Assembly: GCF_025642135.1 (NCBI RefSeq)
Contig: NZ_CP106793.1
Location: 8,028,001 to 8,092,000, forward strand
Source: Streptomyces cynarae
GTDB lineage: Bacteria; Actinomycetota; Actinomycetes; Streptomycetales; Streptomycetaceae
DNA: 64,000 nucleotides
Direction of reading: 5' to 3'
The notes under the pieces are model-generated. The model was not told the DNA's origin. It did not search any database and saw only the letters and a program-made list of their open reading frames with translations. Positions within the stretch are counted from its first letter, which is position 1, and each line of letters begins with the position of its first letter. The position numbers and the translations under genes are program-made. Positions 23,378 through 29,175 of this stretch are shown here, piece after piece.

Positions 23378-25021
23378 ATGGACGCCATGGACAGGTCCAC
23401 AAACCCATCGGCACGGGGGTCCAAAAGTCCACGCCCGACGGCGGCGGCAGCGGACGCGCCGGTGGACGACACGGCGGCCCCCGGCGCGGTCGTCGGCTCG
23501 GACTTCCTCCAGCTGGACATCGGCGAGGCGCCGCCCGGCGGGCGTACCGCCTGGCTCGCCGACCGGCTGCGGTCGGCCATCGCCGACGGCCGGCTGCCCA
23601 TCGGCGCACGACTGCCCGCCAGTCGCGTACTCGCCGAAGAGCTGCGCGTCACCCGGGGCGTGGTCACCGAGGCCTATCGGCGCCTCGCCGAGTCCGGCCA
23701 GATCGCCGGGCGCGGGCGGCTCGGCACGGTGGTCGTGGCGGCTCCCGCCGCGCCCCGCGACCACGCCCGCGACGCGGGCGGACCACCTGAGGCCGGGGCC
23801 GGACCCGCGCTCTTCGGCTCGGGCGACCGCGACGGCCTCATCGACGCCCTGCGCGCCCTGCCCTGCCGCATCGACCTCTCCCCGGGCGTCCCCGACCTCG
23901 CCGCCTTCCCCCGCACCGGCTGGCTGCGCGCCGAACGTGCCGTCCTCGCGGGCGTCGGCCCGGCCGACTTCGGTTACGGCGACCCCCGGGGCGCTCCCGC
24001 ACTGCGCCGGGCCGTGGTCGGCTGGCTGGCCCGCAACCGCGGCATTCGGGCCGACCCGGAGGAGGTGGTGGTCGTCGCGGGTGTGGCGCAGGCTCTCGGC
24101 CTGCTCGCGCAGGTCCTGCGGGCGGACGGGATCCGCCGCATAGCCGTCGAAGATCCCGGTTCGCTCGGAGCGCGCCAGCAACTGGAGTACGGCGGCCACG
24201 AGATCGTGCCCGTTCCCGTGGACGCGGGCGGCCTCGACGTGGCAGCGCTGCGTGCCAGTGGTGCCCGGGCGGTGTTGCTGACCCCGGCACACCAGTTCCC
24301 CACCGGTGTCGTCCTCGACGGGGAACGCCGTCGCGAGCTGCTGAGCTGGGCGGCCGAGGGCGGCGTGGTCATCGAGGACGACTACGACGCCGAGCACCGC
24401 TACGACCGGCCGCCGGTGTCTGCGCTGCGCTCGCTGCTGCCGGACGGCGTCTGCTACGCGGGCAGCGTCTCCAAACTGCTCGCGCCCGCGCTCCGAGTGG
24501 GCTGGCTCCTCGTACCGCCGGACCGACACGACGCCCTGGTGACGGCCAAGCGGTACGCCGACCTCGGAAACGGCGTCCTCACCCAGCTCGTCCTCGCTCG
24601 CCTGATGGACTCGGGTGAGCTGGAACGGCACCTGCGCCATGTCCGGCAGCGCCACCGCAGACGCCGGGACGTGATGCTGCGAGCGATCGACAGGCATCTG
24701 CCCGGCGCCCGCGTCCACGGGGCGGCAGCCGGCCTGCACCTGATGGTCACCTTCAGCGACCCGCGGGGCGGCGCCCGCGACAGCGGTTTCCGTGACACCG
24801 ACCTCGCCGCGGCCGCTCTCGCGGGAGGCGTGAAGGTGCATCCACTGTCCTGGCACCGCATCACGCCCGGCCCTCCGGGCCTGGTCCTTGGCTATGCGGC
24901 GGGCCCGGCCCACGAGATCGACGAGGGCATCGCCGTCATCGGAGCGACCCTGCGCGGCCTCCTGCCGGGGCTGGGCACCACTGTGCCCAGCCCCGCAGCT
25001 GCGGCCCCAGTGCAATCATGA
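23378..25021 (+). CDS. MocR/PdxR-family regulator (GntR HTH fused to aminotransferase fold)
   Basis: A 547-residue protein beginning at ATG 23378; another in-frame ATG lies nine bases on. After a low-complexity N-terminus a GntR winged helix appears (RTAWLADRLRSAIADGRL, RLPASRVLAEELRVTRG). It is followed by a type I aminotransferase domain with DFGYGDPRG, EDDYDAEHRYD and the PLP-binding Lys in GSVSKLLAPALR (about residue 366). MocR proteins sense PLP or PLP-bound ligands and often control vitamin B6, GABA or transporter genes. The likely target is the divergent DMT transporter, whose start is only 21 bases away. Its stop overlaps the ATG of a decayed fragment. Confidence 0.92.
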   Translation: MDAMDRSTNPSARGSKSPRPTAAAADAPVDDTAAPGAVVGSDFLQLDIGEAPPGGRTAWLADRLRSAIADGRLPIGARLPASRVLAEELRVTRGVVTEAYRRLAESGQIAGRGRLGTVVVAAPAAPRDHARDAGGPPEAGAGPALFGSGDRDGLIDALRALPCRIDLSPGVPDLAAFPRTGWLRAERAVLAGVGPADFGYGDPRGAPALRRAVVGWLARNRGIRADPEEVVVVAGVAQALGLLAQVLRADGIRRIAVEDPGSLGARQQLEYGGHEIVPVPVDAGGLDVAALRASGARAVLLTPAHQFPTGVVLDGERRRELLSWAAEGGVVIEDDYDAEHRYDRPPVSALRSLLPDGVCYAGSVSKLLAPALRVGWLLVPPDRHDALVTAKRYADLGNGVLTQLVLARLMDSGELERHLRHVRQRHRRRRDVMLRAIDRHLPGARVHGAAAGLHLMVTFSDPRGGARDSGFRDTDLAAAALAGGVKVHPLSWHRITPGPPGLVLGYAAGPAHEIDEGIAVIGATLRGLLPGLGTTVPSPAAAAPVQS

Positions 25022-25130
25022 CGACCGCTGAACTCGTGTCCGCATACCTGGACGGCCTGGAACGTACAGACACCCATCCGGTGTTGGCCGCGTTCACGCC
25101 CGGTCCGATGGTCCCCTCACCCTGTACGGG
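25018..25130 (+). pseudogene. Fragment of a SnoaL/NTF2-like protein gene
   Basis: The ATG at 25018 overlaps the MocR stop (ATGA). The first codons read like an NTF2/SnoaL protein start (TTAELVSAYLDGLERTD, then VLAAFTPG). About 35 codons in, the frame loses family character: SPCTGP would become SPLYGP with one extra C, and beyond that no matching sequence continues. The open frame to 25323 overlaps the 3' end of the opposite-strand reductase gene. I read it as a small coupled gene that has decayed or been truncated. Confidence 0.35.
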
Positions 25131-25276
25131 CCCGGACCGAGGTGCGCCCGGGCGTGCCGGACCGGCGAAGGCAACTGCCGTGCGTGACGGCGATCGGCCC
25201 CTGCCCCGCCCGACAACACCCGTAGCCGGGCCCGTTACGGTCGGGCCCGACATCCGGCCGGGGCGTGCCTGGAGGG

Positions 25277-25840
25277 TCAGGCGGCGTCGCGCAGCGGAGC
25301 GAGAGCGGTGCTCCAGGCGATGACCTGGTCGAACAGGACGCCGAGCGCCTGCACGTTGTACTCGCCCGGCTTGAGGACACTGAAGTTCTCGAACTCCGTC
25401 ATCAGCGACAGGGCCACCTGCTGACGCACGTCGGCCATCTGCAGCTCGCCGACGACCAGCCGCAGGTGCTCCACGGCCCGGGCACCGCCGACCCCGCCGT
25501 ACGAGACGAAGCCGACCGCCTTGTTGGCCCACTCGGCGGAGAGGTAGTCGATGGCGTTCTTCAGCACGCCCGAGGTGGAGTGGTTGTACTCGGGCGTCAC
25601 CATGATGAACCCGTCGAAGGAGGCGATCTTCTCCGCCCACTCCTTCGTGTGCTCGTTCTGGTACTGGCCCATGGACGGGGGCAGGGGCTCGTCCAGGTGC
25701 GGCAGCGGGTAGTCCCGCAGGTCGACGAGCTCGAACTCGGCGTCGCCGCGCTGGGTGGCGGCGTCGTAGACCCACTTGGCGACCTGCTCGCCGTTGCGGT
25801 TGGGACGGGTGCTGCCGAGAATGATGCCTATCCTGATCAT
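25277..25840 (-). CDS. NAD(P)H-dependent FMN reductase (NADPH_dep_FMN_red family)
   Basis: A 187-residue flavodoxin-like reductase. The ATG at 25840 follows AAGGAAAC. The FMN phosphate loop is GSTRPNRNGEQVAKWV and the second family motif is TPEYNHSTSGVLKNAID; SYGGVGGARAVEHLR completes the pattern. Such enzymes reduce FMN, azo dyes or quinones with NAD(P)H. Two TTGA-N4-TCAA-type boxes lie upstream (25979-26021), matching those around the MarR gene at 28004, so it likely belongs to that regulon and may supply reduced flavin to the luciferase-like enzyme. Confidence 0.92.
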   Translation of the reverse strand: MIRIGIILGSTRPNRNGEQVAKWVYDAATQRGDAEFELVDLRDYPLPHLDEPLPPSMGQYQNEHTKEWAEKIASFDGFIMVTPEYNHSTSGVLKNAIDYLSAEWANKAVGFVSYGGVGGARAVEHLRLVVGELQMADVRQQVALSLMTEFENFSVLKPGEYNVQALGVLFDQVIAWSTALAPLRDAA

Positions 25841-25978
25841 GGTGTTTCCTTAACCGTGTCGGTTGTGGTGTCGCCCTGAATGGGGGTTCAGGGCGCGGGT
25901 GTTCCTCACGAACGGCCCGTTGGGGGCCTCACCCTTGGGCGGTGCGGACCCGCGGGAAAGCGTTTCCGCCAAAGATGA

Positions 25979-26021
25979 TTGATGCGTCATCTAACCTAGG
26001 CCGGTATAGATGACATATCAA
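25979..26021. promoter_or_regulatory. Two MarR-type boxes upstream of the FMN reductase
   Basis: TTGATGCGTCAT (25979-25990) and ATGACATATCAA (26010-26021) each match TTGA-N4-TCAA with one change in an outer half-site. They lie 139-181 bp upstream of the reductase start, within an otherwise gene-free 234-bp gap. Confidence 0.6.
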
Positions 26022-26074
26022 CTTGTTGGCCGAGTGAGCGGCTTCACACCGCCGACCCGGCAGGACGAAGGCGC

Positions 26075-26806
26075 TCAGACCGCCGGTTCGGCCGAGGTCG
26101 AAGCGGCGGCCCGTGCTCGGCTCACGGTTCGTCCGCGCTGTGACTCCGGGAACCGGTTGAGCATCGCTCGCAGCTCCGCGGCGCCGACGTTGGCGCCGAA
26201 GGGCTCGGTGCCCGGTTCGAGTCGCAGCCCTTCGGCAAGTGGTCCTGCCATGACGGGATCGAATCCGAAAGCGTCGACGAGGCGCGCGACGGTGGCGAGG
26301 TCGTCCGGATCGTCACCGGCGATCGCGATCGCCTTGCGTCCCGGCGTCCCCGCCGGCCGGGCGCCGTCCTCGAGATCGTGGTAGCCCATGTGGTTGAAGG
26401 CCTTCACCACGCGCGCTCCGCGCAGGTATGCCTGCACGATCTCGCTGGAGGAGGTGAGCGGATCGGTGAGATCCTCGCGGATCCCGTCGACCTCCCACCA
26501 GTAGTTCATCGCGTCGATGACGAGCTTGCCCCGCAGTGCTTCGGCCGGAATGCCGCGGTACTTGCCGAGCGGGAGCGCCAGAATGACGACGTCCGCCCGA
26601 GCGCCGGCCTCCGCGGAGGTGACGGCTACCGCTCCCGGTGTGAGGACCTCTGTGGTCAGGGCGATCTCGGCGGGGTCGCCCGATCCGGCGATGAGCACGC
26701 GACAACCGGCTGCGAGGGCCAGCCGTGCGAGCACGGTGCCGACCTTCCCGGCACCCAGGATGCCGACCGTGCCGAGGCCCTTGGTGGTCATGTCGTGTCC
26801 GTCCAC
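26075..26806 (-). CDS. F420-dependent NADP oxidoreductase-like protein
   Basis: A 243-residue Rossmann-fold protein of the F420-NADP oxidoreductase / PF03807-type family ([51 protein letters not shown]). I prefer GTG 26806 over ATG 26791. AGGAG lies 8 bases before the GTG but 23 before the ATG, and the GTG is only four bases after the stop of the upstream luciferase-like gene, giving translational coupling. The family transfers hydride between NADPH and F420. Some members use other acceptors, so F420 use is probable, not proven. The pairing with an LLM oxidoreductase fits cofactor recycling. Confidence 0.75.
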
Positions 26807-26810
26807 GGTG

Positions 26811-27851
26811 TCAGCTCCTGGCGTCCGCGAGGATGTCGCGGACCATCGGGAGCACCTTCGTGCCGTACAGCTCGACGGCGCGCAGACGAGCGCTGACCGG
26901 CTGTGCCCCCGCGGTGTAGATGAGGTCGAACCGGCCGACACCGAGTGCCTCGATGGCGCGGGCCATCTTGCGGGCGACCGTCTCGGGCGAGCCGATGTAG
27001 AGGGAGCCGTGCTCGATCTCGGCGTCGTACTCCTCCTTGCGGACCGGCGGCCAGCCCCGCAGCGCGCCGATGCGGTCCCGGATGACCCGGTAGTACGGCC
27101 AGTGCAACTCCCGGGCCTCCTCATCCGTGTCGGCGATGAAGCCCGGCGAGTGCATTCCGACCGGATGGGCCGTCGTACCGAACTTGTCGGTGGCGCGCTG
27201 GTAGAGATCGATGTACGGGGCGAAGCGTTGCGGGTTCCCGCCGATGATGGCGATCATCAGCGGGAAGCCGTAGTGCGCGGTGCGGATGACCGACTGGGGT
27301 GATCCGCCGACCCCGACCCACGTGGTCAGGTGCCCGGACTCGGTCTTGGGGAAGACGTCGGCGTTCTCCAGCGGGGCCCGCTTGGTGCCGCTCCAGGTGA
27401 CGGGCTTCTCCTCGAGCAGCTTGGCGAACAGCTCGATCTTCTCCTCGAAGAGCACGTCGTAATCGCTCAGGTCGTATCCGAAGAGGGGGAAGGACTCCGT
27501 GAAGGAGCCGCGCCCGAGGATGACCTCGGCCCGGCCGTCGGAGAGCGCGTCCACGGTCGAGAAGCGCTGGAAGACGCGGACCGGATCGTCGGAGCTCAGC
27601 ACGGTCACGCCGGAGCCGAGACGGATACGACGGGTGCGGGTGGCGATGCCGGCGAGCACCGTCTCCGGAGTCGAGATCGCGTACTCGGGGCGGTGATGCT
27701 CGCCGAGGGCGATGACGTCGACGCCGATCTCGTCCGCGAGAACGGCCTCGTCGACGACCTGCCGGATGGCCCGTGCGTAGGACACCGGGTTCCCGGAGTC
27801 GTCCTCCGGCACATCGCCGAATGTGTCCAGACCGAAGACGAGATCAGACAT
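26811..27851 (-). CDS. LLM-class (luciferase-like) flavin- or F420-dependent oxidoreductase
   Basis: A 346-residue TIM-barrel enzyme starting at ATG 27851 after CAGGAG. Family stretches are [58 protein letters not shown] and [18 protein letters not shown]. Members use FMNH2 or F420H2 to oxidise or reduce diverse substrates. It is first in a two-gene operon with the F420-NADP oxidoreductase-like gene. Twin TTGA-N4-TCAA boxes lie 25-64 bp upstream, so the MarR protein very likely represses it. Which cofactor it uses cannot be settled from sequence alone. Confidence 0.88.
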
Positions 27852-27875
27852 GGTGGACTCCTGAGAAACCGATGG

Positions 27876-27915
27876 TTGATGTGTCAATAATCCAGGTGGG
27901 CTATTGACGTGTCAA
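27876..27915. promoter_or_regulatory. Twin MarR operators in the LLM/MarR divergent promoter
   Basis: TTGATGTGTCAA (27876-27887) and TTGACGTGTCAA (27904-27915) are exact TTGA-N4-TCAA sites with 28-bp centre-to-centre spacing. Their flanks (GGTTGA and TCAACC) also form a larger imperfect inverted repeat. They lie immediately upstream of the LLM gene. Confidence 0.8.
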
Positions 27916-27957
27916 CCAAGTCGCTCCGGCGCCGGATGTGCTCGGTGCATGCGCACG

Positions 27958-27969
27958 GTGATATATCAA
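27958..27969. promoter_or_regulatory. MarR-type box upstream of the marR-type gene
   Basis: GTGATATATCAA contains the perfect palindrome TGATATATCA and matches TTGA-N4-TCAA with one change. It lies 35 bp before the GTG at 28004, a position suited to autorepression. Confidence 0.65.
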
Positions 27970-28003
27970 CAATTTGGCTAGACTCGTCCTCGTGGAGGAT
28001 TCA

Positions 28004-28456
28004 GTGAACTGGTTGACCGCGGAGGAGCAGCACGCATGGCGGAGCTTCGTCCGGTTGCATGAGCGACTGGGCGGCCGCTTGGCGCGCCTGTTGCAGACGG
28101 AATCCAATCTGTCCGCCGCGGATTTCGCGGTCCTGGTCAACCTCACGGATGTGCCGGAGGGGCGGCGGCGCTACCAGGACCTCGCACTTGCACTGGAGTG
28201 GGAGAAGAGCCGGATGTCCCACCACATCGCGCGCATGGCCGGGCGGGGGCTCGTAGTGCGGGAGGAGTGCCTCGAGGACGGGCGGGGAGCCTTCGTGGCG
28301 ATCACGGAGGCAGGTCGTGCGGCCATCGAGGCGGCGGCCCCGCTGCACGTGAAGGCGGTTCGCTCCCTGTTCCTGGACCATGTCACACCGGCGGAGCTGC
28401 GGACGGTGGCGGAGGTCTCCGAGCGCGTGGTGGAGAAGCTGGAAGAGGAAGCCTGA
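28004..28456 (+). CDS. MarR-family repressor of the flavin/F420 redox module
   Basis: A 150-residue winged-helix regulator. GTG at 28004 follows GGAGG at a spacing of about five; other upstream in-frame codons lack such a site. MarR features are AAWRACRLL-like dimer helix (here FVRLHERLGGRLARLLQ), LSAADFAVLVNLTD, recognition helix EWEKSRMSHHIARMAGRGLV and the wing EECLEDGRGAFVAIT. It is divergent from the LLM operon with three operator-like boxes between them; further boxes lie before the FMN reductase and at 28600. There is no Cys in the DNA-binding domain, so thiol switching is unlikely. A phenolic or substrate ligand is possible. Confidence 0.9.
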   Translation: MNWLTAEEQHAWRSFVRLHERLGGRLARLLQTESNLSAADFAVLVNLTDVPEGRRRYQDLALALEWEKSRMSHHIARMAGRGLVVREECLEDGRGAFVAITEAGRAAIEAAAPLHVKAVRSLFLDHVTPAELRTVAEVSERVVEKLEEEA

Positions 28457-28597
28457 CCGACCGACCGGCCGGCCGTGGGTGGTCGTGGTGAATGGCCGAC
28501 GGCTTCGATCGTCGACGATCGGGCCGCGATGTCCTCGTGGCTGCGTCCGACGTTGCCCGCCTGGAATAGAGGCGGTCCGGCGCATGTTCGGGCAGTC

Positions 28598-28613
28598 GGT
28601 TGATGTATCAACC
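28598..28613. promoter_or_regulatory. Isolated perfect MarR-type palindrome (GGTTGATGTATCAACC)
   Basis: Seven-bp perfect arms with a 2-base centre containing TTGATGTATCAA. It lies directly in front of a remnant that resembles the end of an LLM gene, 131 bp before the TPR gene start. It may be a leftover operator or may still act on the TPR gene. Confidence 0.6.
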
Positions 28614-28740
28614 GCAGCTGGACATGTTCGGTGATGAGGAGGTCGTACCCGTGCTGCGCAAGGAGTTCGCGACGAACCGGCCGGCCGACGTTTTCGACGC
28701 CCCCACCCACGCGTCACTGGTCGCAGCCCCTGGAGGAGGA
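28614..28740 (+). pseudogene. Remnant of a C-terminus, probably from a luciferase-like oxidoreductase
   Basis: The 287-bp gap before the TPR gene contains, in the same frame, LDMFGDEEVVPVLRKEFATN and RPADVFDAPTHASLVAA. By memory this is the standard tail of many LLM-class flavin oxidoreductases (E-x-x-x-P-x-LRKEFA then RPxxVxDAPTHxSLV). No barrel core precedes it. It runs in frame into the TPR ATG through a glycine stretch (PGGGL), so translation from an upstream start could yield a fusion, although the strong internal ribosome site argues for separate translation. Confidence 0.5.
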
Positions 28741-28743
28741 CTG

Positions 28744-29175
28744 ATGAGCGACACCTTCAACGACTACCCGGCGACGGGCGGCGTCGCGCCGGACCGCTGG
28801 GCGAGCGCCCTGCACCTGTTCGACAGCGGCGCCGGCGTCCCGCACGAGGAGACCACGGCGGAGCGCTGGGAGCGGGCCCGGCTGCTGTTCGAGGCGAGGG
28901 ATTACACCGGGGCCGCGAAACTGCTCGCCGCCGTAGTCGAGGAGGTCCCCGAGCAGACCGCGCCCCGGCTGCTGCTGGCCCGCGCCTACTACCACTCGGC
29001 ACAGCTGCGGCGTGCCGAGGAGCAGCTGCGGCAGATCATCGACCGTGACCCCGTGGAGCACTACGCCCACCTGATGCTGGGCCGCACCCTGCAACGTCAG
29101 GGCCGTCACGAGGACGCCGCACCCTGGCTGCGCATGGCCGCCGCTTTCACCGGAGAGCTCCCGGCCGACGACTGA
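28744..29175 (+). CDS. Small tetratricopeptide-repeat protein
   Basis: A 143-residue soluble protein. ATG at 28744 follows GGAGGAGGA. After a 35-residue leader there are about two and a half TPR motifs (WERARLLFEARDYTGAAKLL; PRLLLARAYYHSAQLRRAEEQL; AHLMLGRTLQRQGRHEDAAPWL). TPRs mediate protein-protein contacts; no enzymatic residues are seen. Similar short TPR proteins occur in Streptomyces without assigned role. A very strong terminator follows. Confidence 0.8.
   Translation: MSDTFNDYPATGGVAPDRWASALHLFDSGAGVPHEETTAERWERARLLFEARDYTGAAKLLAAVVEEVPEQTAPRLLLARAYYHSAQLRRAEEQLRQIIDRDPVEHYAHLMLGRTLQRQGRHEDAAPWLRMAAAFTGELPADD

Follow-up and report, generated by a model that had tools for sequence, protein, structure and literature searches.

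Genes and boxes at the locus

In this study, we analyzed a 64-kb window of the Streptomyces cynarae chromosome (the window being the whole stretch of DNA presented here), focusing on a MarR regulator gene, the oxidoreductase genes around it and the short boxes of the form TTGA-N4-TCAA that recur among them. On the reverse strand lie a gene of the NADPH-dependent flavin mononucleotide (FMN) reductase family (25277-25840; PF03358, 155.6 bits), a gene for a Rossmann protein with an F420_oxidored domain that resembles F420-NADP oxidoreductase (FNO) and STEAP proteins (26075-26806), and a gene for a luciferase-like monooxygenase (LLM) with a Bac_luciferase domain, hereafter LLM1 (26811-27851). On the forward strand, marR (27992-28456) belongs to a longest open frame that runs from TTG 27974 to 28456 and carries the Pfam domain MarR_2. 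At the level of Pfam domains, these assignments agree with an earlier note on this DNA, which had named an FMN reductase, an F420-NADP oxidoreductase-like protein, an LLM and a divergent MarR. Beyond marR, also on the forward strand, we found the 3' fossil of a second LLM gene (LLM2, CE1758 family; 28615-28728, within an in-frame stretch at 28603-28743). It is in frame with, and ahead of, an intact gene for a 143-residue tetratricopeptide repeat (TPR) protein of a box-linked clade (28744-29175).

Searching the window for TTGA-N4-TCAA with at most one change returned six sites and no others, and these are the six that the earlier note had listed. Two exact boxes lie 28 bp apart ahead of LLM1 (27876-27887 and 27904-27915), where both the site search and a comparison of LLM1 upstream regions mark them as candidate operators. 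Two one-change boxes, 31 bp apart, are located ahead of the FMN reductase gene (25979-25990 and 26010-26021), each with a counterpart in a conspecific genome (L006). Another one-change box precedes marR (27958-27969), and a third exact box (28600-28611) precedes the decayed LLM2-TPR unit.

As a null, we used 100 shuffles of the window. The three exact sites compare with 0.10 expected, and no shuffle reached three. The window-wide count of six sites with at most one change is by itself unexceptional (3.94 expected; 18 of 100 shuffles reach six). All six are confined to 2,633 bp, where 0.16 would be expected (Poisson P about 2e-8). Moreover, the stricter form TTGAYRYRTCAA occurs at four places in the 9.36-Mb genome, three of them at this locus. 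The fourth (L001, G000:C1:7858273) adjoins IS5-type transposase frames, has no obvious target gene and is not counted as support. A chance origin of the six boxes was rejected.

The regulator and the conservation of its putative operators

By sequence comparison, the MarR protein is a member of the AbsC/SCO3205 subfamily and a predicted repressor. Its nearest solved structures are SCO3205 (3zpl, E 2.1e-26) and AbsC (3zmd, E 8.6e-25), followed by 5dd8 (9e-09). In a set of 64 orthologues of at least 70% identity, the recognition-helix residues Ser79, Arg80, Ser82, His83 and Arg87 are invariant and match Ser73, Arg74, Ser76, His77 and Arg81 of SCO3205, which, together with Arg72, are among the DNA contacts given in PMC3737563. 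Arg72 aligns with Lys78 of the present protein, and this lysine is likewise kept in 64/64 orthologues. Trp22 (64/64) and His125 (63/64) align with the Trp/His pair of the salicylate pocket of AbsC, described as Trp18 and His120 in the same source.

SCO3205 of Streptomyces coelicolor (3zpl, PMC3737563) resembles the present regulator in its subfamily, its recognition-helix contacts, a divergent target, two operators and a site of the type TTnA...TCAA. Unlike here, where the neighboring genes encode LLM, FNO-like, FMN reductase and TPR proteins, its target is the extradiol-dioxygenase-like sco3204. The SCO3205 operator consensus reported in PMC3737563 is TTnAAnnnTCAA, whose fixed positions are shared by the three exact boxes except for the A at position 5. 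AbsC (SCO5405, 3zmd) shares the subfamily and the Trp/His salicylate pocket, but it has been linked to zinc-dependent antibiotic production (PMC3737563).

The marR promoter shows a compact arrangement. A -10-like hexamer, TAGACT (27979-27984, forward strand), lies 7 nt before GTG 27992, and TTG 27974 is located upstream of it. Because TAGACT precedes GTG 27992, marR probably starts at this GTG and not at TTG 27974, which would imply a leaderless mRNA. Of the 64 orthologue promoters, 40 were inspected, and most of them have a TACACT-like hexamer at the same place after the box, with the start codon following 6-8 nt on.

We found that a box of the form RTGA-N4-TCAA occupies one fixed place ahead of marR in 60 of the 64 orthologues; of the other four, one carries a different one-change version and three lack a box at this place. 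Since this form is so widely kept, the one-change box at 27958 is the conserved form itself. When a wider interval upstream of marR is considered, a box is present in 62/64 orthologues, compared with 0-4/64 for each of seven control motifs. Upstream of LLM1, two boxes with at most one change each lie 26-34 bp apart in 31 of 44 distinct regions, which are mutually related and not independent, and each of nine permuted half-site control motifs was found in 0/44. The fraction is 29/42 without L170 and L185, two loci that had been retrieved with the box pattern. In a set of 295 genomes of the genus, paired boxes were detected 26 times, distributed over 25 genomes, and the reversed control in none, and a MarR, LLM, FNO-like or LLM2/TPR homologue stands beside the paired boxes in 18 of the 25 loci returned. 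The earlier note had proposed a shared box in every promoter of the group. A conserved operator does stand at the group's promoters, including marR's own, but the 28600 box serves the TPR gene, which was not among the genes listed.

These data also bear on which protein would use the boxes. They may be operators of another AbsC-type paralogue, or of several overlapping ones, with the local MarR being one player in a shared regulon. Because the genome has five MarR matches at E 1e-20 or better, the local one included, a paralogous MarR could bind the same boxes, which weighs against assigning them to the local protein. The AbsC/SCO3205 group is common in the genus, a relative at this threshold being present in 295/295 genomes searched. 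Overlapping regulons have been proposed for SCO3205, AbsC and SCO7727 in PMC3737563, and in other genomes paired boxes adjoin MarRs of only 32-34% identity. However, three of the four genomic TTGAYRYRTCAA sites are at this locus, and the marR-proximal box is kept with its gene in 60/64 orthologues, so that we regard a shared regulon of this kind as unlikely. We favor regulation of the boxes by the local MarR.

The LLM1 and FNO-like pair

LLM1 passes the model of the Atu2307/SP_0267 family (TIGR03858; 499 against a cut-off of 462.25 bits) and matches 2i7g at E 1.8e-98. It meets no model of the F420-dependent LLM proteins, the best being TIGR03619 (71.4 vs 166.9 bits). By family, LLM1 is thus predicted to be of the FMN type. 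It differs from the Atu2307/SP_0267 LLM (2i7g) in that a MarR-type operator precedes it and an FNO-like gene accompanies it. This pairing is constant: the FNO-like gene lies directly behind an LLM gene in 25/25 loci at a threshold of at least 65% identity, the own locus included, and in 7/7 of the named loci with an intact FNO-like gene. Since all 25 loci keep the arrangement, the pair is a real unit. A gene order unique to this strain, which the earlier note had named as an outcome contrary to its proposal, is not what we observe for these two genes.

The FNO-like protein shares the superfamily Rossmann fold with FNO (TIGR01915, 5n2i, 1jax), but it fails the NADPH:F420 reductase model (NCBIfam npdG; 38.3 vs 149.8 bits), and the STEAP3 domain and 4huj are a somewhat better match to the model. 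The true FNO of the genome is encoded elsewhere (266.2 bits) and has the turn GSR. The arginine after the serine in the second-strand turn has a role with the 2'-phosphate. In the FNO-like protein of the window and in 24/24 relatives compared (L215 and L218 being left out of this comparison), the turn is Ser-Gly and the arginine is lost. A Ser-Arg turn is present in the genome's own FNO, in 5n2i, STEAP3 and 4huj, in 5/5 unlinked homologues and in the LLM-linked locus L148. At L148, an FNO-like gene of 76% identity lies beside an LLM of 54% identity, with no box; this LLM-linked branch retains the usual Ser-Arg turn.

The earlier note had read this group as self-contained, with the FNO-like protein supplying the LLM enzyme with F420H2. 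The fold and domain name are compatible with it, but the score on the npdG model, the separate true FNO, the Ser-Gly turn in the window and 24 relatives (with L148 as the exception) and the membership of LLM1 in TIGR03858 argue against an F420 unit, which we consider highly improbable. A more adventurous reading, which we hold to be doubtful, is that the LLM-linked FNO-like subfamily, recognizable by the Ser-Gly turn, an MNYWW/MNHWW motif and its place behind an Atu2307-type LLM, would be a STEAP-like hydride donor dedicated to the monooxygenase and providing it with reduced flavin, being neither a flavodoxin-fold nor a usual FMN reductase and not F420-linked. If true, the pair would be a two-component luciferase-type oxygenase with a reductase of an unusual kind.

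The gene at 25277-25840 is less tightly bound to this unit. Its product falls outside the CE1759 family (23.8 vs 175.9 bits) and the SsuE family (27 vs 164 bits) as modelled. The description as self-contained is weakened by how seldom this gene lies near LLM or FNO-like genes (see below) and by the loss of LLM genes in relatives. As to whether other Streptomyces hold the same gene set with the same box, the paired boxes and the LLM/FNO-like pair recur as described above, but the FMN reductase gene seldom accompanies them (4/30 loci, own included; see below). A short frame at 25018-25323 follows a MocR-like regulator gene and has no Pfam or NCBIfam match; it begins like what we take to be an NTF2/SnoaL-type protein and diverges afterwards.

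Gene decay and the proposed regulon

The 28600 box was considered as part of an LLM-FMN reductase module, and this was rejected because the box precedes the LLM2 fossil and the TPR gene. Between the box and the TPR gene, only residues 319-355 of LLM2 remain in the window (73% identity). The corresponding box of relatives precedes a gene for a CE1758-family LLM, after which comes the TPR gene (the L088 LLM scores 689 vs 479 bits). This order recalls the LLM duo CE1758/CE1759 (TIGR04036/TIGR04037). L208 keeps the duo with the box, having a CE1758 LLM (695.8 bits), a CE1759 FMN reductase (280.9 vs 175.9 bits) and a TPR protein that lacks residues 41-107, whereas the window retains only a fossil of the CE1758 gene, and a CE1759 gene was not detected there. 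Among the 14 closest TPR loci (at least 79% identity, the own locus included), ten have the box, three end before the LLM2 start and one (L254) has none. In 16 more distant TPR loci no box was in view, and three of these have LLM2 and CE1759 genes starting outside the locus. In several relatives this LLM2 gene has been lost in other ways, in part or entirely.

A similar loss affects LLM1. In the conspecific Y2F8-2, LLM1 is missing and the FNO-like protein has lost its first 35 residues (L035, 100-1140), yet counterparts of all six boxes are retained. In the LLM2-TPR unit of the window and in Y2F8-2, operators outlast enzyme genes. The locus might accordingly be viewed as a decaying remnant with little present function, a view that fits the LLM2 fossil, the deletion in Y2F8-2 and the FNO-like fragments of L041 and L049, which, besides that of L035, stand without LLM1. 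Against it, the window shows uninterrupted frames across the domains of the MarR, FNO-like, LLM1, FMN reductase and TPR proteins, and the operators are conserved in 31/44 LLM1 regions and 60/64 marR orthologues. We find a mere remnant distinctly unlikely.

Altogether, these results lead us to favor, as the probable explanation on sequence grounds, a ligand-released FMN-monooxygenase regulon, in which the AbsC/SCO3205-type MarR would bind the TTGA-N4-TCAA boxes and so repress its own gene and three neighboring transcription units, namely LLM1 plus the FNO-like gene, the gene for the FMN reductase, and what remains of the LLM2-TPR unit. MarR would be released by a small molecule seated in the conserved Trp/His pocket, probably a phenolic compound or an aromatic carboxylate. 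The products would then be an FMN-dependent luciferase-like monooxygenase, its partner FNO/STEAP-like dehydrogenase and a flavin reductase, and these enzymes may serve to oxidize or detoxify the inducing compound, or an electrophile related to it.

Several observations, besides the paralogues and the deletion in Y2F8-2, count against this regulon. At position 5, the present boxes carry T, C or A, in contrast to the A of the SCO3205 consensus. The box pair is absent in 13/44 LLM1 upstream regions; three of these (L131-L133) belong to distant LLM paralogues (54-55% identity), four (L235 and L237-L239) come from another family of the order, and the remaining six are L087, L116, L206, L241, L244 and L247. 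The FMN reductase gene lies near LLM or FNO-like genes in only 4/30 loci (own included; 1.5-kb flanks). Finally, an amidohydrolase, a sigma-70 region 4 protein and a glutaminase are found near paired boxes, unlike a detoxification theme.

At other loci, paired boxes also adjoin genes for NmrA-like proteins, aldo/keto reductases, an isochorismatase and an FMO-like oxidoreductase. Among the 20 neighborhoods compared, recurrent genes encode pirin, CMD-family, DoxX-like, acetyltransferase, 4Fe-4S and isochorismatase proteins, together with the glutaminase. Gene combinations of this kind would be consistent with a response to electrophiles, quinones or aromatic compounds, and the target compound of the regulon is probably aromatic or electrophilic. 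In six loci (L180, L184, L186, L187, L193 and L194), a GTTC/GAAC inverted repeat lies at the spacer ends of the paired boxes; a MarR homologue of 32-33% identity is present at five of them, and L180 and L186 were confirmed to have an aldo/keto reductase as a neighbor. Together these loci may form a second regulon that uses this type of box.

The system had been put forward as undescribed, which holds only in part because the regulator subfamily and the operator type are already published (PMC3737563); in the literature searched, we found neither this set of targets, nor the FNO-like subfamily tied to LLM genes, nor the decayed LLM2-TPR unit. The authors of PMC3737563 were unable to assign SCO3205 a function. 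A link between one branch of the AbsC/SCO3205 subfamily and LLM monooxygenases, with a clear arrangement of operators, would provide a testable regulon. In addition, the LLM-bound FNO-like subfamily advises caution against reading the database name 'NADPH-dependent F420 reductase' as F420 chemistry.

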